Source: Bryobacterales bacterium
GTDB lineage: Bacteria > Acidobacteriota > Terriglobia > Bryobacterales > Bryobacteraceae
Assembly: GCA_020852175.1 (NCBI GenBank)
Contig: JADZBH010000009.1
Coordinates: 1 to 64,000 of the forward strand
Direction of reading: 5' to 3'
DNA length: 64,000 nt
Shown here: positions 45,081 to 54,629 of the stretch, piece by piece
How positions within the stretch are numbered: position 1 is the stretch's first letter
Layout of the letters: every line of letters starts with the position of its first letter
Made by a program: the position numbers and the translations under genes
Notes under the pieces: generated by a model
The model's input: only the letters and a program-made list of their open reading frames with translations
Databases searched by the model: none
What the model was told of the DNA's origin: nothing

Positions 45081-46475
45081 TTAAGCCACCAGGTCGCGAA
45101 TCACGTTGCCACCGACGTCGGTCAGGCGGAAGTCGCGGCCGGAGTGCCTATAGGTGAGCTTGGTGTGGTCAAGGCCCATCTGGTTCAGGACGGTGGCCTG
45201 CAAGTCGTGCGGATGAACGGGCTTTTCAACGGCCTGGAAGCCGAAGTCGTCGGTGGCGCCATAGGCGAATCCACCTTTGAACCCGCCGCCGGCGACGACA
45301 CTGGAGAAGCCGTGATTGTTGTGGTCACGGCCGTTGTGGATGCGTGCGACGGCTGAAACCTCGACGCTCGGCGTGCGGCCGAACTCTCCGCTGATGATGA
45401 CAATGGTCTCCTTCAGCAGTCCGCTCGCCTTCAGATCGTGGAGAAGCGCGCCCATGGGCCCGTCGCTTGTGCCGGCCAGCCGGGCGTGGTCCAGAATGTC
45501 GTCGTGGGAGTCCCAGGGCTGCTGGTTGCCGTAATAGACCTGCACCATGCGCACGCCCCGTTCCACCAGACGGCGGGCAATCAGGCAGCCGCGGGCGAAA
45601 TCGCCCGTGCCGTAGCGTTCCCGCGTGGTTTCGAGCTCCTTGGTCAGGTCGAAGGCGTCGGTGGCTTCGGCCTGCATCCGGTAGGCAACCTCCATGGTGG
45701 CGATCCGGGCTTCCAACTGCGGATCGGCGCCTTCGTGTGCCATGTGCCCTTTGTTGATGGCGTGCATCAGATCGAGCTGGCGGCGCTGCTCGTCACCGGA
45801 AATATCGCGGTTGCGAAGGTGCTGGATCAGCTTCTCCGGCACGCTCTCGTTGTTCGGCAGGTGCACGCCCTGGTGGATGCCGGGCAGGTAGCCGTTGGAC
45901 CACAACTGGGGCCCGATGACGGGCAATCCAGGGCACAGCACGACGTAGCCGGGCAGGTTCTGATTCTCCGTGCCCAGTCCATAGGTGAGCCAGGCGCCCA
46001 TCGACGGGTGGCCGGCGATCTGGTGGCCCGTGTTCAAACGCAGCAGCGAAGGTTCATGGTTAGGCCGCTCGACGTGCATGGAGCGGATCACGCAGAGATC
46101 GTCGGCGTGCTCGCCGAGTTTGGAGAAGATTTCGCTGATTTCCAGCCCCGAAGCTCCGCAACGCTTGAACTCGAAGGGCGACTTGAGCAGCGTGCCCGTC
46201 TTCCGTTCCGTCTTCAGGTTGCCCGACGGCGCCAGCGTGCCGTGATACTTCGTCAGCATGGGCTTGGGATCGAAGGTGTCCACCTGCGATGGGCCGCCAT
46301 TCAGAAACAGAAAAATGACGTGCTTGGCCTTGGCCGGGAAGTGGGGCTGGCGCGGCACCAGCATGCCTTCGCCGCCGGCGGTCTTGGCGGCCGGCGCGGC
46401 CATCAGGGCGTTCATCGACATGGCGCCGAAACCGGCGCCGAGGGTGCGAAGCAGTTCACGTCGATTGGTATTCAT
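45081..46475 (-). CDS. Exported DUF1501 protein
   Basis: A 464-residue protein with a twin-arginine-like leader (MNTNRRELLRTLGAGFGAMS) and the DUF1501 domain, an alkaline-phosphatase/sulfatase-like fold: HVIFLFLNGGPSQVDTFDP, HHGTL-type loops, SGEFGRTPSVE and DHNNHGF near the end. These proteins occur in pairs with DUF1553 cytochromes in Planctomycetes and Acidobacteria, usually adjacent and co-transcribed as here (14 nt after the DUF1553 stop). Function is unproven; degradation of complex carbohydrate has been suggested for some systems. Confidence 0.9.
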   Translation of the reverse strand: MNTNRRELLRTLGAGFGAMSMNALMAAPAAKTAGGEGMLVPRQPHFPAKAKHVIFLFLNGGPSQVDTFDPKPMLTKYHGTLAPSGNLKTERKTGTLLKSPFEFKRCGASGLEISEIFSKLGEHADDLCVIRSMHVERPNHEPSLLRLNTGHQIAGHPSMGAWLTYGLGTENQNLPGYVVLCPGLPVIGPQLWSNGYLPGIHQGVHLPNNESVPEKLIQHLRNRDISGDEQRRQLDLMHAINKGHMAHEGADPQLEARIATMEVAYRMQAEATDAFDLTKELETTRERYGTGDFARGCLIARRLVERGVRMVQVYYGNQQPWDSHDDILDHARLAGTSDGPMGALLHDLKASGLLKETIVIISGEFGRTPSVEVSAVARIHNGRDHNNHGFSSVVAGGGFKGGFAYGATDDFGFQAVEKPVHPHDLQATVLNQMGLDHTKLTYRHSGRDFRLTDVGGNVIRDLVA

Positions 46476-46489
46476 CGTTGCGGTGCCCT

Positions 46490-49093
46490 CTAGTTCACGA
46501 ACAACAGCTCATTGGAGCCCAGCAGCGCCTGGGCGTAGCGGGGCCATGTGCCGCCGGGCGTTTGCAAATACTTCAGCCCCAATTGAATCTCGTCCCTGGC
46601 CGCCTCGCGCTGAAACAAAACGCGGTAGACGGCGCGGATGCGCCCGGCGTCGTCCGGGGCGGCGGCGGAGACGCGCGCCGACAGCGCCTTGGCGCGCGCT
46701 TGAATAAACTCGCTGTTCAGAAAGAACAACTGCTGCAGCGGCGTGGCCGTCTGGATGCGCTGCTCGGTGGTGGCCACCGGGTTCGGAAAGTCAAACAGCG
46801 CCAGCGTGCCGTCCAGCTTCCGGCGGCTGACCGATCCGTACACGGTGCGGCGGCGGCTGGAAGCATCGGCGATCTGTTCCGGCTTGCCGCCAGGGGTTTC
46901 GTCGAGATCGCCCGCGACGTACAGCAGCGTATCGCGCAGGGGCTCCGCGTCCAGGCGGCGGCGCGCCCAGTGCCACACCATGGCGTTGCCCGGGTCTTTT
47001 GTCATGTTCGGTTCCGCGGTTTGCGAACTGAGCCGGTAGGCCGCGCTCAATACGATCTCGCGATGAAGCGCCTTCAGCGACCAGCCTTGCTCCATGAGAC
47101 GGGCGGCGAGATAGTCGAGCAGTTCGGGATTCGTGGGCTTCTCGCCCAGTTGTCCGAAGTTGCTCGGGCTGCCCACCAGGCCGCGTCCGAAATGCTCCAG
47201 CCAGACGCGGTTCGCCATGACGCGGGCCGTGAGCGGATTCGAGCTGCTGGCGATGGCTTCGGCCAGTTCCAGACGTCCGCTGCCCTTGGTGAACGGCGGC
47301 GGCTCGCCATCGCACAACACGGACAGGAAGCGGCGCGGCGCCTCTTCGCCCAGGTTGTCCCGGTTTCCCTTGATCTCGACGCGAATGTCCTTCGGTGTCT
47401 CCACGTCGGAGACCGTCTGATAGAACGGATACATCTCCGGGATGGCTTTCTTCAGACGCTCGGATTCGGCGCGCAACTGGTTGGCGTAGCCGAGATAGGC
47501 GGGGGCAAGCCAGCGGTCGAGCTTGGCGTCCTTGTAATAAAAAACACCGGAGTCCGCCTTGCCCACGCGCGACGGCTGAAAAAAGTCGCGCCACAGGTAG
47601 AAATCGTCGCGCGCGAGCGACTTCACCTCGATCACGCGCACGCTGGTGTCGTCGGTCTTGCCGCCCAGCGCGATCATGTTCTCGCGGTCGATCCGTTTTT
47701 TCTCCTCGAACACTCCGGCCACCTTGGCCTGAAACGCGGCATCGTCAAACGCCGCGCTCTTCCAATCCTTCAAAAACGGGTGTTCCAGTTTCGGCTGGTT
47801 CAGATAGGTCTTCAAACGCTCCAGCGTTTCGGCGTCCAGCGAGGCGCCGGCCGCCCCGCCTCTGGCGGCTTCCAAATACCGTGCCGTCCGGGTGGCGAGA
47901 ATCAGAGCCAGTTGCGAGGCCTGGCCGTCGAGATACTCGTCCAGCTTCTTCTTTTGCTCATCCGAGGCCGCCTTGCGGCGGTCATACTCCTTCACGGTCG
48001 CGGCGGGCGCCAGAGGATAGGTGTCCAGCTTCGTCGAGCGGAACACGCCGAGCAGGGAGTAGTAATCCTTCGTGGGAATGGGGTCGAATTTGTGGTCGTG
48101 ACACTGCGCGCAGGCCACGGTCAGTCCCAGCAATCCGCGGCTCAGAGCGTCCACGCGGTCGTCCTGCTGCTCGGGACTGAGCGAGAAAAAACCAAGCCCG
48201 CCAATGTAACGTTCCTTGTTCTGGGGGTCGAACAGGTCGCCGGCGATTTGCGCTTTCAGAAAGCGGTCATAGGGCATATCCGCGTTCATCGCCTGAATCA
48301 CCCAGTCGCGGTAACGCCAGGCGTTCGGATACGGCGCGTCCTCGGTGGAGCTGTACTTTTCGTCGGCGTAGCGGGCCACGTCCAGCCAGTGCCGGCCCCA
48401 ACGTTCGCCGTAACGAGGCGAGGCGAGCAAACGGTCCACCACCTTGTCATAGGCGTCCGGCGACTTGTCGGCGGTGAACGCCTTCACCTCGGCCTCGGTG
48501 GGCGGCAATCCGGTGAGGTCGAAACTGGCGCGGCGCAGGAGCGTGCGGCGGCTGGCCTCGGCGACGGGCTTCAGACCTTCGCGGTCCATCGCCGCCAGCA
48601 GGAACCGGTCGATGCCGGTCTTGGGCCAGGTTTTGTCCTTCACGGCGGGCGGGGCGGGCTTTTTCACGGGGCGGAAGCTCCACCAGGCGCGCTGCCCGGC
48701 GGTGATCCTGTAGCCGTCGGCTTTCGCCTCGGCCTTGTGCGATGGCCACGCGGCGCCATCCTTCACCCAGTGGGCCAGCAGTTCGATGTCGGCTTCCGGC
48801 ATCTTGCCCGACGGCGGCATTTTCAGATTGCCGTGCGTGTGGCGGATGGCCTGAATCAGAAGGCTCTGGCCGGGATCGCCGGCTTTGATCGCCGGGCCGG
48901 ATTTGCCACCTTTCAGGGCCTCTTCGCGCGAGGTCAGCGACAGTCCGCCCATCTTCGTTTGCGCATGGCAGCCCAAACAATTTTTCGCCAGCAGCGGGCG
49001 CACCTTCATCTCGAAGAATTCGTCACCCTCCCCGGCGGAGAGGATGGAGGCAAAGACAAGGAATCCCAGTACCCAGGAAAATCGGCCAAGCAT
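46490..49093 (-). CDS. Exported cytochrome-like DUF1549/DUF1553 protein
   Basis: An 867-residue protein. A signal peptide (MLGRFSWVLGFLVFASILSA) precedes a PSCyt1-type cytochrome region with one CxxCH heme site (NCLGCHAQ), then DUF1549 (ARYADEKYSSTED region; CAQCHDHKFDPIP holds a second CxxCH) and the C-terminal DUF1553 domain (ARVMANRVWLEHFGRGLVG; NFGQLGEKPTNPELLDYLA). The ATG at 49093 gives the best leader; ATGs up to 72 nt further upstream are in frame. It is the partner of the DUF1501 gene. It diverges from the ATPase-SPFH operon, with a 92-nt gap. Confidence 0.92.
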   Translation of the reverse strand: MLGRFSWVLGFLVFASILSAGEGDEFFEMKVRPLLAKNCLGCHAQTKMGGLSLTSREEALKGGKSGPAIKAGDPGQSLLIQAIRHTHGNLKMPPSGKMPEADIELLAHWVKDGAAWPSHKAEAKADGYRITAGQRAWWSFRPVKKPAPPAVKDKTWPKTGIDRFLLAAMDREGLKPVAEASRRTLLRRASFDLTGLPPTEAEVKAFTADKSPDAYDKVVDRLLASPRYGERWGRHWLDVARYADEKYSSTEDAPYPNAWRYRDWVIQAMNADMPYDRFLKAQIAGDLFDPQNKERYIGGLGFFSLSPEQQDDRVDALSRGLLGLTVACAQCHDHKFDPIPTKDYYSLLGVFRSTKLDTYPLAPAATVKEYDRRKAASDEQKKKLDEYLDGQASQLALILATRTARYLEAARGGAAGASLDAETLERLKTYLNQPKLEHPFLKDWKSAAFDDAAFQAKVAGVFEEKKRIDRENMIALGGKTDDTSVRVIEVKSLARDDFYLWRDFFQPSRVGKADSGVFYYKDAKLDRWLAPAYLGYANQLRAESERLKKAIPEMYPFYQTVSDVETPKDIRVEIKGNRDNLGEEAPRRFLSVLCDGEPPPFTKGSGRLELAEAIASSSNPLTARVMANRVWLEHFGRGLVGSPSNFGQLGEKPTNPELLDYLAARLMEQGWSLKALHREIVLSAAYRLSSQTAEPNMTKDPGNAMVWHWARRRLDAEPLRDTLLYVAGDLDETPGGKPEQIADASSRRRTVYGSVSRRKLDGTLALFDFPNPVATTEQRIQTATPLQQLFFLNSEFIQARAKALSARVSAAAPDDAGRIRAVYRVLFQREAARDEIQLGLKYLQTPGGTWPRYAQALLGSNELLFVN

Positions 49094-49185
49094 AGCGCTA
49101 ACTGCGGGCATTCTATCAAACGGTCCCGCGCGGGGCACGCCGGAGGTCTGGTCATGCGATGGCATAATGAATCGGTCGCGGCATC

Positions 49186-52100
49186 ATGCATCAACACCGC
49201 CTGGAACTGCACACCGTCACAAGCCCTCGCGAGGAGCGGATGGAACGTGTGCGCTATTTCGGCTTTGCCGGCATCGTCGGCCTGCTGCTGCTGTTGAACC
49301 TGACGGGTGTCTATCGCGAAGTGGCCGGCATCGACACGGCGGCCATCCTTACGGTGCTCGCCGGCTACCGGACCTTTTATAACGCCATCGCCGGGTTGCT
49401 GGACCGCACCATCTCGGCCGACCTGGCCATCTGCATCGCCGTGATCGCCGCGCTGAGCATCGGCGAATACCTGGCCGCCGCCGAGGCCATGTTCATCATG
49501 TTGGTGGGCGAGGGGTTGGAAGGCTACGCGGCCAAGCGGACCTCGCGGGCGATTCAACAGTTCGTCGAGCAACTGCCGCGGCGGGCGCGCCTGCTGCGCG
49601 ACGGCGAGGAGACCGAGGTGGACGCGGCGGCGCTGCTGCCCGGAGACCTGATCGTGGTTCGCGCCGGCGAACGGCTGGCCGCCGATGGCGTGATCGGCGA
49701 AGGCACGAGCGCGTTGAACGAGGCCAGCATCACCGGCGAATCGCTGCCCCGCGACAAAAGCGCCGGCGACGAGGTGTTCATGGGCACGCTCAACGGCGAA
49801 GGGCTGTTGAAGGTGCGCGTGACCCGCGCCGGAGAAGACACCACGCTGGCGCGCGTGATCCAGCTTGTCGAGCGCGCCCGCGAGAACAAAGCGCCGGTGG
49901 AACGCCTGGCGGACCGCTTCGCGAAATACTTCGTGCCCGCTCTGCTGCTGGTGGCGGCGGCGACCTTCTACTTCACACGCGACTGGCTGCGGACCGTCTC
50001 CGTGTTGATTGTCGGCTGCCCGTGCGCGCTGATTCTGGCCACTCCCACCGCCATGGTGGCGGCCATCGGCGGACTGGCGCGCCGCGGCATTCTGGTGCGC
50101 GGCGGCAACGTGCTGCAGGAGGCCGCCCGTCTGGACACGATTCTGTTCGACAAGACGGGCACGGTGACCGAAGGGCGGTTCGAGGTGTTGCAACTGCTGC
50201 CGCACGGCGTCAGCGAGGAGGAGTTGCTGCGGTTGGCGGCGGCGGCCGAGCGCGGCTCCGATCATGTGCTGGCGCGCGTGATTGTCGACGCGGCGCGGGA
50301 CCGGGGCATCCTGCCGCCCGAACCCGATTCGGCGCGCATCGCCGCCGGACGCGGGGCTGAGTGCGTGCTCGACGGCCGCGTGATTCGCGCCGGGAATCCC
50401 GCGTTCCTGCAGGAGGCTGGCGTGATCACGCCGCCCGAAGCTCTGGAGGAGGCCGACCGCCTGGGCGCGACGGCCGTCCTGGTGGCCGCCGGGAACCGGT
50501 ACGCCGGCGCCATCCTGCTGCGCGACCGTGTACGTCCGGGCGTGCATGAGGCCGTGCATGCTTTGGAAGACCTGGAGATCGGCCAGATCGTCATGCTCAC
50601 CGGCGACCGCCGCCGCGCCGCCGAGGCCATCGCGCGCGAGGCCGGCATCGTCATCGTCGAAAGCGAACTGCTGCCCGAACAAAAGCTCGACCGCGTCCGG
50701 CTGTGGATGGCCCAGGGCAAGGTGGTGGGCATGGTGGGCGACGGCGTGAACGACGCGCCGGCCCTGGCCGCCGCGCACGTCGGCATCGCCGTGCAGGGCG
50801 CCAGCGACATCAGCGCCGAGGCCGCCGGCGTGGTCTATCTCGGCCACTCGCTCGACCAGTTGCCCAAGCTGATCGAAGTCAGCCGCAAGGCCGTCGCCAT
50901 AGTCTGGCAAAGCATTCTCGTGTTCGCCGTGGGCGTGAACGCACTGGCGATTCTGCTGGCCTCCACGGGACGTCTGGGGCCGCTGGGTGCGGCCTTCACG
51001 CACCAGATCGGTTCGTTTCTGGTGATGTTGAATGCCCTGCGGCTGCTGGAGGTGGAAGACCGCGGCCTGGGCAGGTGGCGGCGGCGGATCGCGGCGGCGC
51101 TGGGGTCCGGCTGGCCGCGCCTGCTGGGCTTTCGCGCCAAACTGTGGATCTCGCGGCTGGAACCGGGGCTGTGGTTCCTCCATCTGCTGGAACACCGCGC
51201 ACGCTATTACAAGCCGGCGGCGTTCGCCGCTGCCGTGCTGGCGCTGGCGAACGGTTTTTACATGCTGAGGCCGGACGAGGTGGGCGTCATCGAGCGCTTC
51301 GGCCGCAAGGTGCTGCCGCATCGCGAACCCGGCCTGCACTACAAGCTGCCGTGGCCCATCGAAACGTTGACGCGCGTACAGGCGCGGCGCGTGCGCGTGG
51401 TCGAGATTGGTTTCCGCTCCACGAACACTTACACCGAACAGTTCGAACCGGCAGCGTATGAATGGAACGTGCAGCACCGTTCGGGACGGTTCCAGCGGCG
51501 GCCCGAGGAATCGCTCATGCTGTCGGGCGACCAGAACATGACGGAGTTAACGGCGGTGGTGCACTACCGGCTGGCGCGCCCAGAGGATTTTCTTTTTTTG
51601 CAACTGGATGGCGAAGCGGTGGTCCGTACGGCATCGGAGAGCGTGCTGCAAGGCGTCATCTCCTCCTCGCCGCTGGACGAGGCGCTGACGGTGAGCCGCC
51701 GCGGGCTGGAGGATCGCGCCCGGCGCGAGTTGCAGCAGCGGCTGGATCGTTACCGGACCGGCGTGGAGGTGTTGCAGGTGAAACTGCTGGATGTGCATCC
51801 GTCGGTGGAGGTGGTGGACGCCTTTCGCGGCGTCTCGGGCGCCTACGAGGAGAAGAACCGCCTGATCAACGAGGCCGAGGGCTACCGCAATGAGCAGGTG
51901 GCGCTGGCTCGCGGCCGCGCGGCGGCAAGCCTGCGTACAGCGCAAGGCTATTCGGCGAGCCGGAAGGCGCGCGCGGCGGGCGACGCCAGCCGGTTCACGC
52001 AATTTGAATCGGCCTACCGCGTTTCGCCCGGCACCACCGGGACCAGGCTCTACCTGGAAACGATGGAACAGATTCTGCCCGGAAAGAAAAAAATGATTGT

Positions 52101-52224
52101 CGATGCCACGAAAGCGCGGCGGCACCTGATGCTGATCGACGACGGCGCTGTGCTCAGTCCGGCGGGCGCGACGCCCGCGCCGTCCGCCGCGCCCGTGCGC
52201 ATTCCGCAGGAGGATGAGCCATGA
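49186..52224 (+). CDS. P1B-type metal ATPase fused to an HflK-like SPFH protein
   Basis: A single 1012-residue frame with two complete halves. Residues 1-625 form a P-type ATPase: two N-terminal helices, a second pair at about 78-113, the A-domain with TGES (183-186), CPC in helix 6 (278-280), DKTGT phosphorylation site (322-326), GDGVNDAP (518-525) and two last helices at about 569-621. No HMA domain precedes it, and the usual HP dipeptide of the N-domain is HV (360-361). After a linker, a helix (about 676-694) leads to the HflK-like SPFH domain (about 695-970), with VDAFRGVSGAYEEKNRLINE and RLYLETMEQIL. An in-frame ATG at 49240 follows a GAGGAG and may be the real start. Confidence 0.93.
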   Translation: MHQHRLELHTVTSPREERMERVRYFGFAGIVGLLLLLNLTGVYREVAGIDTAAILTVLAGYRTFYNAIAGLLDRTISADLAICIAVIAALSIGEYLAAAEAMFIMLVGEGLEGYAAKRTSRAIQQFVEQLPRRARLLRDGEETEVDAAALLPGDLIVVRAGERLAADGVIGEGTSALNEASITGESLPRDKSAGDEVFMGTLNGEGLLKVRVTRAGEDTTLARVIQLVERARENKAPVERLADRFAKYFVPALLLVAAATFYFTRDWLRTVSVLIVGCPCALILATPTAMVAAIGGLARRGILVRGGNVLQEAARLDTILFDKTGTVTEGRFEVLQLLPHGVSEEELLRLAAAAERGSDHVLARVIVDAARDRGILPPEPDSARIAAGRGAECVLDGRVIRAGNPAFLQEAGVITPPEALEEADRLGATAVLVAAGNRYAGAILLRDRVRPGVHEAVHALEDLEIGQIVMLTGDRRRAAEAIAREAGIVIVESELLPEQKLDRVRLWMAQGKVVGMVGDGVNDAPALAAAHVGIAVQGASDISAEAAGVVYLGHSLDQLPKLIEVSRKAVAIVWQSILVFAVGVNALAILLASTGRLGPLGAAFTHQIGSFLVMLNALRLLEVEDRGLGRWRRRIAAALGSGWPRLLGFRAKLWISRLEPGLWFLHLLEHRARYYKPAAFAAAVLALANGFYMLRPDEVGVIERFGRKVLPHREPGLHYKLPWPIETLTRVQARRVRVVEIGFRSTNTYTEQFEPAAYEWNVQHRSGRFQRRPEESLMLSGDQNMTELTAVVHYRLARPEDFLFLQLDGEAVVRTASESVLQGVISSSPLDEALTVSRRGLEDRARRELQQRLDRYRTGVEVLQVKLLDVHPSVEVVDAFRGVSGAYEEKNRLINEAEGYRNEQVALARGRAAASLRTAQGYSASRKARAAGDASRFTQFESAYRVSPGTTGTRLYLETMEQILPGKKKMIVDATKARRHLMLIDDGAVLSPAGATPAPSAAPVRIPQEDEP

Positions 52225-53111
52225 TTCCCGAACGCTTCCATAAATTTATTCCCGCCGGGCTGGGCCTGCTGGTTCTGTTGTTGCTGTGGCAAACCTTCTA
52301 TGCCGTGCGCGAAACCGAGTTCGTGCTGGTGACCCAGTTCGGCCGCCCGGTGTACACGGCGGCCGATGCCGGCCTGCACATGAAGTGGTTCTTCCAGAGC
52401 GCCACCTTTTTCGACAGGCGCCTGCGCGTGTACAACCCAAGGCCGAGCGAGTTCCTGACCCGCGACAAGAAGAACCTGGTGATTGAAAGTTATGTGGCCT
52501 GGCGGATCGACGATCCCAAGCGTTTCGTCGAGACCGTGGGGGATCCGCTGGCGGCCGAGATGCGGCTGCACGACATCGTGTGGAGCGGCTTGAGCGCGGC
52601 GCTTGGCACGCACGATCTGGAGACGATCGTCTCGGCGAATCCGGCGCAAGTGAAGGCGGGCGGAATGCTGGACCAGCTTGCCGCGTCCACCGGACAAAGC
52701 GCGCTCGCCGGATATGGCATCCGCGTGGTGGACGTGCGCATCAAGCGGCTGAACCTGCCGGAACAGAACAAGCAGAGCGTCTACGCCCGCATGCGGGCCG
52801 AACGGGAGCGGATCGCGCGGCAGTACCGCGCCGAGGGAGAGGAACAGGCTCTGAGCATCCGCGCCGATGCCGACCGGCAGCGCGACGAGATCGTTTCGGC
52901 CGCCTACAAGGAAGCCGAAAAGACCAAGGGCGAAGGCGACGCCGAGGCGACACGCGTCTACTCACAGGCATACGCGAAGAACCCGCGCTTCTACAAACTG
53001 CTGCGCACGCTGGAGAGCTACAAGAAGATTTTCGACGATAAGACCACGGCCATCCTCGGTTCGGATAGCGAACTGATGAAGGTGCTGATGCGGGGAGAGT
53101 CGGCGCAGTGA
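52221..53111 (+). CDS. HflC-like SPFH protein
   Basis: A 296-residue membrane protein. One N-terminal helix (IPAGLGLLVLLLLWQTFYAV) is followed by the SPFH/Band 7 domain: ETEFVLVTQFGRPV, DAGLHMKW, VIESYVAWRIDDPKRFVETV, GIRVVDVRIKRLNLPEQNKQSVYARMRAERERIA and the coiled coil to YKKIFDDKTTAILGSDSEL. This matches HflC, partner of HflK in the membrane complex that encloses FtsH. ATG overlaps the ATPase-HflK stop (ATGA). No ftsH gene is in the window. It most likely assembles with the two HflK-like domains encoded on either side. Confidence 0.93.
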   Translation: MIPERFHKFIPAGLGLLVLLLLWQTFYAVRETEFVLVTQFGRPVYTAADAGLHMKWFFQSATFFDRRLRVYNPRPSEFLTRDKKNLVIESYVAWRIDDPKRFVETVGDPLAAEMRLHDIVWSGLSAALGTHDLETIVSANPAQVKAGGMLDQLAASTGQSALAGYGIRVVDVRIKRLNLPEQNKQSVYARMRAERERIARQYRAEGEEQALSIRADADRQRDEIVSAAYKEAEKTKGEGDAEATRVYSQAYAKNPRFYKLLRTLESYKKIFDDKTTAILGSDSELMKVLMRGESAQ

Positions 53112-54142
53112 ATCCGCCGGACAGACCGCACGGGCATTCGCACGGCCCCTGGCGCGGGCTGAGCCATGGCCACTCGCACGGGTTGCCGTCGATTTCCCTG
53201 CCCCGTTTGAATTGGAACTGGCTGCGCGAGGGCGGACGGCGGCGGTGGCTCGCGGCGGCGCTGGCCGTGTGGGTGTTGAGCGGTCTCTACATCGTGAGCG
53301 CCGACCAGCAGGCCGTGGTGACGCGCTTTGGCGCGGTGGTGGAGGCGCGCGTGATGCCGGGCATTCACTATGCCCTGCCCTGGCCAGTGGACTCGGTGAC
53401 GAAGCTGAAGGTCCGGCAGTACCAGCGTGCCGTGATCGGCGGCGAGGCGCCGGATGCGGTTCTGGGCCGGTTGCAGCCGCTGGCCTCGCAGTTCCTGACG
53501 GGCGACCAGAATATTCTTCATTTGCGCGTGGTGGCGCAGTACTCGGTGGCCGTCCCCGCCGACTATCTGTACCGCAGCGCCGCCGTGGCGCAGTTGACCG
53601 GCGCCGCCGTGGAAAGCGAACTGGCGCGGCGCGTGGCGCGGCGCACGGTGGATAGCGTGCTGACGACGGAGAAGGCGGCGATTCAGGAGGAGGTGCGCGC
53701 GGGCGCGCAGAAGGTGCTGAACGGCTACGCGGCGGGCGTGCAACTGGCGAGCGTGAATATCGAGAGCGCCACGCCTCCGCCCGAGGCGGCCGATGCCTTC
53801 CGCGACGTGGCCAGCGCGCGCGCCGACTCGGCCCGCATCGTGAACGAAGCGCAGGGTTACGCGAACGATGTCATTCCCAAGGCGCGCGGCGAGGCGCGGC
53901 AACTGCTGGAAGCGGCGGCGGCATACCGGTTGCGGAAAGCGAACGAGGCCGCCGGCGACGCGGCGCGCTTCTCGCAGGTGGCCGCCGAGTATGGCCGTGC
54001 GCCCGAGGTGAACGGGCGGCGTCTTTATGCCGAAGCCATGGAGGAGATTCTGCCCCGCATCCGGAAACTGATTGTCGACAGCCGCGGCAATCTGGATTTG
54101 ACGATCATCCGCAACTCCGATGAGCGCAAGACCAAACCGTAA
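53108..54142 (+). CDS. HflK-like SPFH protein with a His-rich N-terminus
   Basis: A 344-residue protein. The N-terminus has two copies of HGHSHG (residues 9-14 and 21-26 approximately), six histidines plus others in under 20 residues. A helix follows (WLAAALAVWVLSGLYIVSA, about 48-66), then SPFH (QQAVVTRFGAVVEARVMPG; PPEAADAFRDVASARADSARIVNEAQGYAN) and an HflK-type tail (RRLYAEAMEEILPRI). Canonical HflK has a Gly-rich cytoplasmic N-tail, so a His-rich tail is odd; it resembles the metal-binding stretches of CDF and ZIP transporters. GTG start overlaps the HflC stop (GTGA). Confidence 0.92.
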   Translation: MNPPDRPHGHSHGPWRGLSHGHSHGLPSISLPRLNWNWLREGGRRRWLAAALAVWVLSGLYIVSADQQAVVTRFGAVVEARVMPGIHYALPWPVDSVTKLKVRQYQRAVIGGEAPDAVLGRLQPLASQFLTGDQNILHLRVVAQYSVAVPADYLYRSAAVAQLTGAAVESELARRVARRTVDSVLTTEKAAIQEEVRAGAQKVLNGYAAGVQLASVNIESATPPPEAADAFRDVASARADSARIVNEAQGYANDVIPKARGEARQLLEAAAAYRLRKANEAAGDAARFSQVAAEYGRAPEVNGRRLYAEAMEEILPRIRKLIVDSRGNLDLTIIRNSDERKTKP

Positions 54143-54629
54143 GGCGCAACTGCTCACCGGCGCGTTGATCGCCGCCATCGCCGTGTGGCTGTGGACACGG
54201 CCGCGCGGAGCCGCGCCGGAACCCGCCACCGAAGCTTCCGCGCCTACGCCGGTCCGGCGGGAGCCGTCGCCGCAGGATGCCATCTACGCCATGATCGACG
54301 CGGCGCGCGCCGGCGACGTGAAAACCTACCTGGCCTGCTTCACCGGTGCAATGCGGCCCCGCCTGGAGCAGGCGCTCGCCGAAAGCGGTGAAGCGAAGTT
54401 CGGAGATTATCTGAAACGCACCAATGCGGAGTTGAAAGGAGTGGCCATCGATGAGCCCGCGGCGGTGGGAAACGGCGAGGTGAAGGCGCGCGTGGAATAC
54501 GTCTACGCGGGCCGCAACGAGGTGCAGGTGATGACGGTGCTGCGCACCGGCGCCGGATGGAAGATCGCCCGCCTTGACGAGGCCGAACGCGTGAAGACGC
54601 AGGTCCCCTACGGTACGCCTGTGCGGTAG
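54120..54629 (+). CDS. Membrane-anchored protein of unknown function, probable NTF2/DUF4878-like fold
   Basis: A 169-residue protein with one N-terminal helix (LLTGALIAAIAVWLW), a proline-rich linker and a C-terminal domain of about 110 residues. The pattern DAIYAMIDAARAGDVKTYLACF, then FGDYLKRTNAELKGVAID, VEYVYAGRNEVQVMTVLR and TGAGWKIARLD resembles a cystatin/NTF2-like (lumazine-binding or DUF4878) fold, without catalytic residues that I can name. The ATG lies 23 nt inside the HflK-like gene, so it is coupled to it and is the last gene of the operon. It might be an accessory subunit on the periplasmic face. Family not confirmed. Confidence 0.75.
   Translation: MSARPNRKAQLLTGALIAAIAVWLWTRPRGAAPEPATEASAPTPVRREPSPQDAIYAMIDAARAGDVKTYLACFTGAMRPRLEQALAESGEAKFGDYLKRTNAELKGVAIDEPAAVGNGEVKARVEYVYAGRNEVQVMTVLRTGAGWKIARLDEAERVKTQVPYGTPVR

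Follow-up and report, generated by a model that had tools for sequence, protein, structure and literature searches.

In a 64,000-nucleotide (nt) stretch of contig JADZBH010000009.1 (positions 1 to 64,000 of the forward strand; hereafter the window) from the Bryobacterales genome assembly GCA_020852175.1, we analyzed a gene that encodes a heavy-metal P1B-type ATPase and an HflK-like SPFH protein as one polypeptide, together with the three genes that follow it. The ATPase half (residues 79-620) matches the heavy-metal P-type ATPase profile TIGR01525 with 543.8 bits against a curated cut-off of 346.25, and the C-terminal half (residues 691-983) matches the hflK profile TIGR01933 with 196.3 bits against 159.4 and is preceded, as in HflK, by a transmembrane (TM) helix, placed at residues 671-688 by the structure model. 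Pfam recognizes E1-E2_ATPase, Hydrolase, and Band_7 domains in the fusion, and the TGES, CPC, DKTGT, and GDGVNDAP motifs that an earlier sequence-only reading of this DNA had listed are all found in the ATPase half. The next gene product scores above the TIGR01932 cut-off and is thus an HflC; it is followed by a second HflK-like protein (HflK2) and a small membrane-anchored protein. Successive genes overlap by 4, 4, and 23 nt. The sequence-only reading had proposed both a single frame comprising a P1B ATPase, a TM helix, and an HflK-like SPFH domain, and a four-gene operon with overlaps of 4-23 nt; the profile scores and the conservation of both frame and gene order among relatives, described below, bear out these proposals.

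The source genome, a 5.0-Mb draft, comprises 71 contigs. Judged by eye, its three other Band_7 genes encode a stomatin-like protein, an SPFH protein of short length, and one whose C-terminal end resembles a zinc ribbon. No further HflC above the curated cut-off was found in the draft; therefore, as far as the draft shows, the operon supplies the only HflK and HflC of this genome. In the fourth protein, a TM helix precedes a domain whose model reaches a pLDDT (predicted local distance difference test) of 91 and whose best PDB matches are weakly but consistently SnoaL/NTF2-like (best E 4.4e-4); the sequence of this protein is conserved across the fusion family. A His-rich cytosolic tail on HflK2 is confined to close relatives and a small number of others, and we rejected it as a general metal handle for that reason.

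The database search for the fused architecture that the sequence-only reading had called for revealed a family of such proteins. When about 85,000 species genomes were scanned with the SPFH half, 381 relatives emerged, and among the best 80, 67 encode the whole ATPase-HflK fusion in a single frame, 11 are cut by a contig edge, and two (L094 and L103) are frame-broken. The stretch from M6 to the SPFH domain, comprising linker and TM helix, has 19 different lengths between 57 and 93 amino acids (aa) in the 57 fusions in which it could be measured, and is always in frame. HflC and HflK2 follow wherever the contig extends, as does the fourth gene with few exceptions, and the junctions 3' of the fusion vary freely in overlap or gap. 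The carriers, which include many soil and freshwater bacteria, are labelled Bryobacterales/Solibacteraceae, other Acidobacteriota, Armatimonadota, and Brocadiia (Planctomycetota), and thus span three phyla. Some of the records look mislabelled or contaminated, namely those labelled Cytophagales (L056), Acidimicrobiia (L059), and Nevskia (L098); L056 shares its match coordinates and identity with the acidobacterial L055.

Fifteen full-length fusions, in four families, are present among 297 genomes of the phylum, and those outside the source genome are 43-46% identical to the source fusion. The 201 Armatimonadota genomes contain 13 strong HflK matches, ten of them in frames of 998-1143 aa and the remaining three in shorter frames (455, 567, and 730 aa); for two of these three, the contig is known to end within the frame. 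In the source order, HflK is present in 41 of 150 genomes, and the same 41 contain an HflC that exceeds the curated cut-off. All but a few of these HflKs lie in frames of at least 991 aa, the exceptions being two near contig starts (G398, G437), one in an 843-aa frame (G338), and one in a broken locus (G420); the only additional HflCs above the cut-off adjoin a permease-HflK fusion, and no conventional HflKC was found in the 150 genomes. Long conventional HflK frames (G168, 1203 aa; G160, 477 aa) were considered as a second kind of fusion and rejected as ordinary two-gene loci. The fusion is not a general replacement for conventional HflKC either, as acidobacterial families f20 and f47 possess the two side by side.

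P1B pumps have eight membrane helices with both ends in the cytosol, and HflK has a cytosolic N-terminus and a periplasmic SPFH domain. The even number of ATPase helices and the topology of HflK would therefore permit the two to be joined without inverting either half. Within the 67 whole fusions, TGE and the CPC of M4 are invariant, DKTGT is present in all except L085 (DKTGS), the hinge motif is mostly GDG[VIL]ND, and the N-terminal 110 residues contain no CxxC metal-binding motif. The profile score together with DKTGT, TGE, GDGxND, and the M4 CPx places the pump among P1B ATPases. Its membrane site has CPC in M4, Asn in M5, and, in M6, a His-Gln pair (H606, Q607) that never varies, and we rejected assignment to a named subclass, as the motifs match none: P1B-2 (ZntA) pairs CPC with an M5 Lys and an M6 Asp, P1B-1 (CopA), which lies on a separate branch, has Met-x-x-Ser-Ser in M6 instead of HQxxS, and P1B-4 (CoaT) has SPC in M4 and HEGxT in M6, sharing with the fusion the position of the His. 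The unfused ATPases linked to SPFH trios have HN in M6, compared with HQ in the fusions.

The predicted ATPase fold (residues 20-627) is closest to the PIB-4 pump sCoaT (7qbz; Z 33.9, root-mean-square deviation 4.5, 490 residues); a second structural comparison spanned residues 14-626, and the SPFH half was judged by sequence. Like the fusion, sCoaT has no classical heavy-metal-binding domain, and His606 aligns with its M6 His657, reported to be sandwiched between the SPC residues and crucial for function (PMC8880997). It differs in having SPC and HEGxT rather than CPC and HQxxS, and in being a stand-alone protein. The metal moved by the fusion is probably Zn2+, Cu being possible, and zinc is favored because of the company that the SPFH trio keeps.

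This company includes unrelated transporters. A PF03773 permease is fused to HflK, with HflC and HflK2 following, in L138, L143, and L165-L168, which makes a second and independent fusion of a metal transporter. The two permeases tested belong to the SO_0444 family of Cu/Zn efflux transporters (NF033936, 385 and 321 bits, cut-off 300), and neighboring genes encode a ZIP protein (L138, L143) or ZnuC/ZnuB-type proteins (L166). In L143, genes resembling a tripartite efflux system also adjoin the locus. CDF proteins occupy the same place in L161, L163, and L164, as identified by Pfam, and in L162 and L171, as identified by similarity; the L161 CDF scores 89.4 bits against the TIGR01297 cut-off of 82.35. 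Since L164 groups apart from L161 and L163 in the SPFH tree, the CDF fusion was apparently made at least twice.

In other loci, the ATPase is a separate protein. An HflK with a multi-TM extension accompanies a separate P1B ATPase in L140 (1385-9370), L142, and L174-L176, and on plasmids of Burkholderia, Klebsiella, Rhizobium, and Paraburkholderia (L150-L153, L159, L160). L178 also combines a trio of this kind with a separate P1B ATPase, and L173 has a CDF-type HflK extension (PF01545, 34.9 vs. 26.6) plus a separate P1B ATPase with a His-rich N-terminus. Some unfused trio-plus-P1B operons run on into ZnuC/ZnuB-type ATP-binding cassette genes. The N-termini of the trio-linked ATPases in the Armatimonadota loci L173 (7516-9645) and L178 (1989-4151) are extremely His-rich (HHHGPHCQHEHE...). 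As a control, 23 acidobacterial two-gene hflK-hflC loci, mostly inspected over 5-6 kb on each side, lacked both a third SPFH gene and any of the metal transporters described here. The earlier suggestion that metal transport is coupled to a scaffold thus gains strong comparative support, with two unrelated transporter families fused to HflK in addition to the unfused trio-plus-P1B operons.

In a tree of 88 SPFH sequences, the HflK and HflC proteins of the P1B, SO_0444, and one CDF operon group jointly (Shimodaira-Hasegawa-like approximate likelihood ratio test 95 and 95), and their HflK2 proteins group likewise, less firmly (90). These transporter-operon groups are separate from conventional pairs, and the hmtA-type trios and other CDF operons lie deeper. 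In addition, most transporter-linked HflKs, although not that of L138, contain a Trp insertion that is often followed by His (W or W..H), which is absent from conventional HflKs and from the HflK2 proteins of fused-transporter operons. The simplest reading of these sequences would be one common trio chassis with interchanged transporters, plus at least one further independent fusion. That unrelated metal transporters were repeatedly joined to HflK suggests that the cage exists to organize metal traffic across the membrane. HflK-HflC-HflK2 operons may even constitute a modular class of SPFH compartments dedicated to transition-metal traffic, with at least three unrelated transporter superfamilies mounted on a periplasmic vestibule and metal moved into or out of it, a generalization that we hold tentatively and rate a little short of even.

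Table 1. Features of the fused operon in the window, and coordinates of related trio loci carrying other transporters (locus coordinates are given after the locus name).
Feature	Coordinates	Strand	Remarks
P1B-ATPase::HflK fusion gene, 1012 aa	49186..52224	+	ATG start, single open frame without stop
P1B ATPase module, residues 1-622 (MA, MB, M1-M6)	49186..51051	+	TIGR01525 match at residues 79-620
CPC motif in M4, residues 278-280	50017..50025	+	67/67 fusions
DKTGT phosphorylation motif, residues 322-326	50149..50163	+	66/67 fusions
HQ pair in M6, residues 606-607	51001..51006	+	invariant; replaces the ZntA Asp or CopA Met-Ser-Ser site
Basic linker, residues 623-670	51052..51195	+	length varies, frame kept; low pLDDT
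HflK TM helix, residues 671-688	51196..51249	+	helix in structure model; hydrophobic stretch
HflK-type SPFH domain and long C-terminal helix, residues 691-983	51256..52134	+	TIGR01933, Band_7
YEWN-QHR-GR insertion in SPFH domain, residues 758-768	51457..51489	+	sequence comparison
hflC-like gene, 296 aa	52221..53111	+	TIGR01932, 221.5 bits > cut-off 134.4
Second hflK-like gene (HflK2), 344 aa	53108..54142	+	TIGR01933, 209.3 bits > cut-off 159.4
His-rich cytosolic tail of HflK2 (HGHSHGPWRGLSHGHSHG)	53129..53182	+	sequence
Membrane-anchored, predicted periplasmic NTF2/SnoaL-like protein, 169 aa, fourth gene	54120..54629	+	structure model, conservation
Permease-HflK trio loci	L138:1036-5722; L167:5135-9187		coordinates per locus
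Permease-HflK trio loci	L143:6614-11141; L165:5438-9450; L166:5257-10942; L168:5623-10417	-	
CDF-HflK trio loci	L161:5029-8678; L162:3356-7004; L163:5296-8949; L164:15-3537; L171:6009-8770		

The sequence-only reading knew of no described system of this kind. This holds for the fusion itself, as we found no description of a transporter fused to HflK in the openly licensed PMC papers searched; it does not hold for the unfused counterpart, which is known in Pseudomonas aeruginosa (PA2439-PA2435). There, the SPFH trio PA2437-PA2439 (PaFlo5-PaFlo7) sits with hmtA (PA2435), so that one P1B ATPase and three HflK/HflC-type SPFH genes share one locus, just as the fused operon unites a P1B ATPase with an HflK-HflC-HflK-like trio. 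It differs in that its ATPase is a separate protein, and the fused ATPases belong to a distinct clade. The P. aeruginosa locus entered this comparison by its description in papers, and the plasmid counterparts (L150-L153) were read as sequence; the latter have the order HflK, HflC, SPFH, P1B with 4-nt overlaps at several junctions, and they differ from the fused operon in the multi-TM N-terminal extension of HflK, in the ATPase clade, and in that no NTF2-like fourth protein was seen.

Published data link the P. aeruginosa locus to zinc. Transcripts of PA2434-PA2439 rise on Zn depletion (PMC4542158), and the proteins of the trio and HmtA rise as well, with varying significance (PMC11761036). 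Zur binds the promoter of PA2439, the first gene, completely only with zinc (PMC8531726). Overexpression of HmtA raises cell zinc and copper, which was read as import that is still to be confirmed (PMC10393844). A 2026 study, which makes no mention of HmtA, observed no pronounced phenotype when PaFlo5-7 were deleted, for the traits that it assayed (PMC13086221).

Overall, we judge it reasonably probable that the operon encodes a metal-transport cage with an HflK-carried pump at the rim of its dome. Like E. coli HflKC, the HflK and HflC SPFH proteins would form a dome over the periplasmic side of the inner membrane, and one of the two HflK-type subunits would carry the P1B pump at its N-terminus, so that pumps would be anchored where the dome meets the membrane; they may form part of the wall of an assembled cage, as the sequence-only reading proposed. 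The pump would spend ATP in the cytosol and carry a transition metal, Zn2+ being the likeliest, through the membrane where the dome stands. Such a dome might keep the pumps together and stable, and its protected space might hold the moved metal, hand it on, or seclude it from the periplasm, with the NTF2-like protein acting in or beside that space. The P1B, SO_0444, and CDF families are mostly exporters. The direction may be export, or it may be import, as HmtA is a reported importer. The sequences show the fusion, its intact motifs, an operon kept across three phyla, and the exchange of transporters on related trios; the assembly, periplasmic location, metal, direction, and purpose of the cage are what we infer.

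Several points weigh against this interpretation. A ring of 24 subunits might not accommodate eight additional helices per HflK, the pump may lie beyond the dome, HflK, HflC, and HflK2 may not co-assemble, and the pump copy number may not be high. The metal is not readable from the CPC and HQ site. Zur-like boxes upstream of 82 fused operons were not above a shuffled control, for a consensus that is of the proteobacterial type, and the flanks of the fused operons contain no recurrent genes of evident metal function. In P. aeruginosa, hmtA mRNA was not zinc-repressed in one study (PMC8531726). The fused and unfused trio ATPases form two clades (99/97 and 100/99); a joint clade for them was not rejected by the approximately unbiased test (p 0.18), and the analogy with HmtA therefore rests on the operon and not on proven orthology. 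Finally, trio operons were found mostly via extended HflK frames, and transporter-free trios may be missed.

Other explanations have to be weighed against a metal-transport cage. That the gene is an assembly artefact or an erroneous read-through of two genes is scarcely credible: the source draft is fragmented and L094 and L103 are frame-broken, but it is refuted for the gene by 67 intact fusions from three phyla, whose linkers take 19 different lengths and stay in frame, and which include fusions in single-contig or few-contig genomes (e.g., G184, G108, and G300), and the sequencing error or stop between the two halves that the sequence-only reading had considered is not borne out. The product may still be cleaved after translation. 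It is unlikely that the trio is a normal FtsH-regulating HflKC made metal-responsive by its pump, the state of the ATPase opening or closing the dome and so controlling proteolysis. Both HflK and HflC pass the curated cut-offs for families of FtsH modulators, all 12 genomes tested encode FtsH, and dome opening controls FtsH access in E. coli (PMC13220708). However, FtsH is encoded elsewhere in the genome and no ftsH lies near the fused operon, most genomes of the order contain no HflK/HflC, and the two acidobacterial families that keep conventional hflKC beside the fusion indicate that the trio is not a general FtsH modulator there. Moreover, mechanistically unrelated transporters, including CDF carriers that have no ATPase activity, fill the same slot. 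The suggestion in the sequence-only reading that metal status controls proteolysis draws on the E. coli analogy only and was not supported; a link to FtsH is possible on the basis of homology.

The SPFH part might instead be a simple chaperone or anchor that stabilizes and clusters the transporter in a membrane patch with no enclosed compartment, in the manner of PacL1 of Mycobacterium tuberculosis, a scaffold encoded with a P1B ATPase that is required for CtpC levels and gathers this ATPase into high-molecular-weight metal efflux platforms (PMC9374683). Fusion would fix stoichiometry and stability. We nonetheless regard a simple anchor as improbable, as it would not need HflK and HflC partners in fixed order, a third SPFH protein, and an NTF2-like protein; PacL1 itself is a small disordered DUF1490 protein that is neither SPFH nor fused and forms foci independently of flotillin. 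Much less probable still is that the P-type ATPase is not a metal pump and serves to open the dome, as a motor or as a transporter of lipids or other ions. The HQxxS site in M6, unlike those of ZntA and CopA, leaves the substrate not assured, yet the invariant CPC in M4, the PIB-4 pump 7qbz as best structural match, and the metal transporters that serve as alternative partners of the cage all argue for a metal pump.

SPFH cages occur in all domains of life, and apart from FtsH the cargo of the bacterial ones is mostly unknown. That HflK has been joined more than once to metal transporters of different kinds names such cargo directly and offers a covalent means of studying the structure of a cage together with its client. 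It also gives a testable role to the zinc-responsive SPFH genes of the P. aeruginosa hmtA locus, and a metal-transport cage, if real, would let the cell confine at the membrane a metal that is essential yet toxic. E. coli HflKC, an HflK-HflC dome that surrounds FtsH, shares with the operon the HflK and HflC families, the order HflK then HflC, and a predicted N-terminal TM helix with a periplasmic SPFH domain, whereas it has two genes, no transporter, and no third SPFH protein, and conventional pairs lie on separate branches. Stomatin domes, which enclose AQP1 and UT-B, are likewise SPFH domes with transporters (PMC12407830), but they are eukaryotic, cytosolic homo-oligomers, and their transporters are enclosed rather than covalently joined and do not carry metal.

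The genes flanking the operon lie on the opposite strand and outside the unit, with PSD1/DUF1501 genes upstream and an inorganic pyrophosphatase gene downstream, and L039 excepted, they are not common to relatives. In the window, the DUF1501 and PSCyt1-PSCyt2-PSD1 genes adjoin the fusion at 45081-49165 (minus strand). Among the L037-L053 loci checked, L039 alone also has a DUF1501/PSCyt1-PSCyt2-PSD1-like pair 5' of its fusion.

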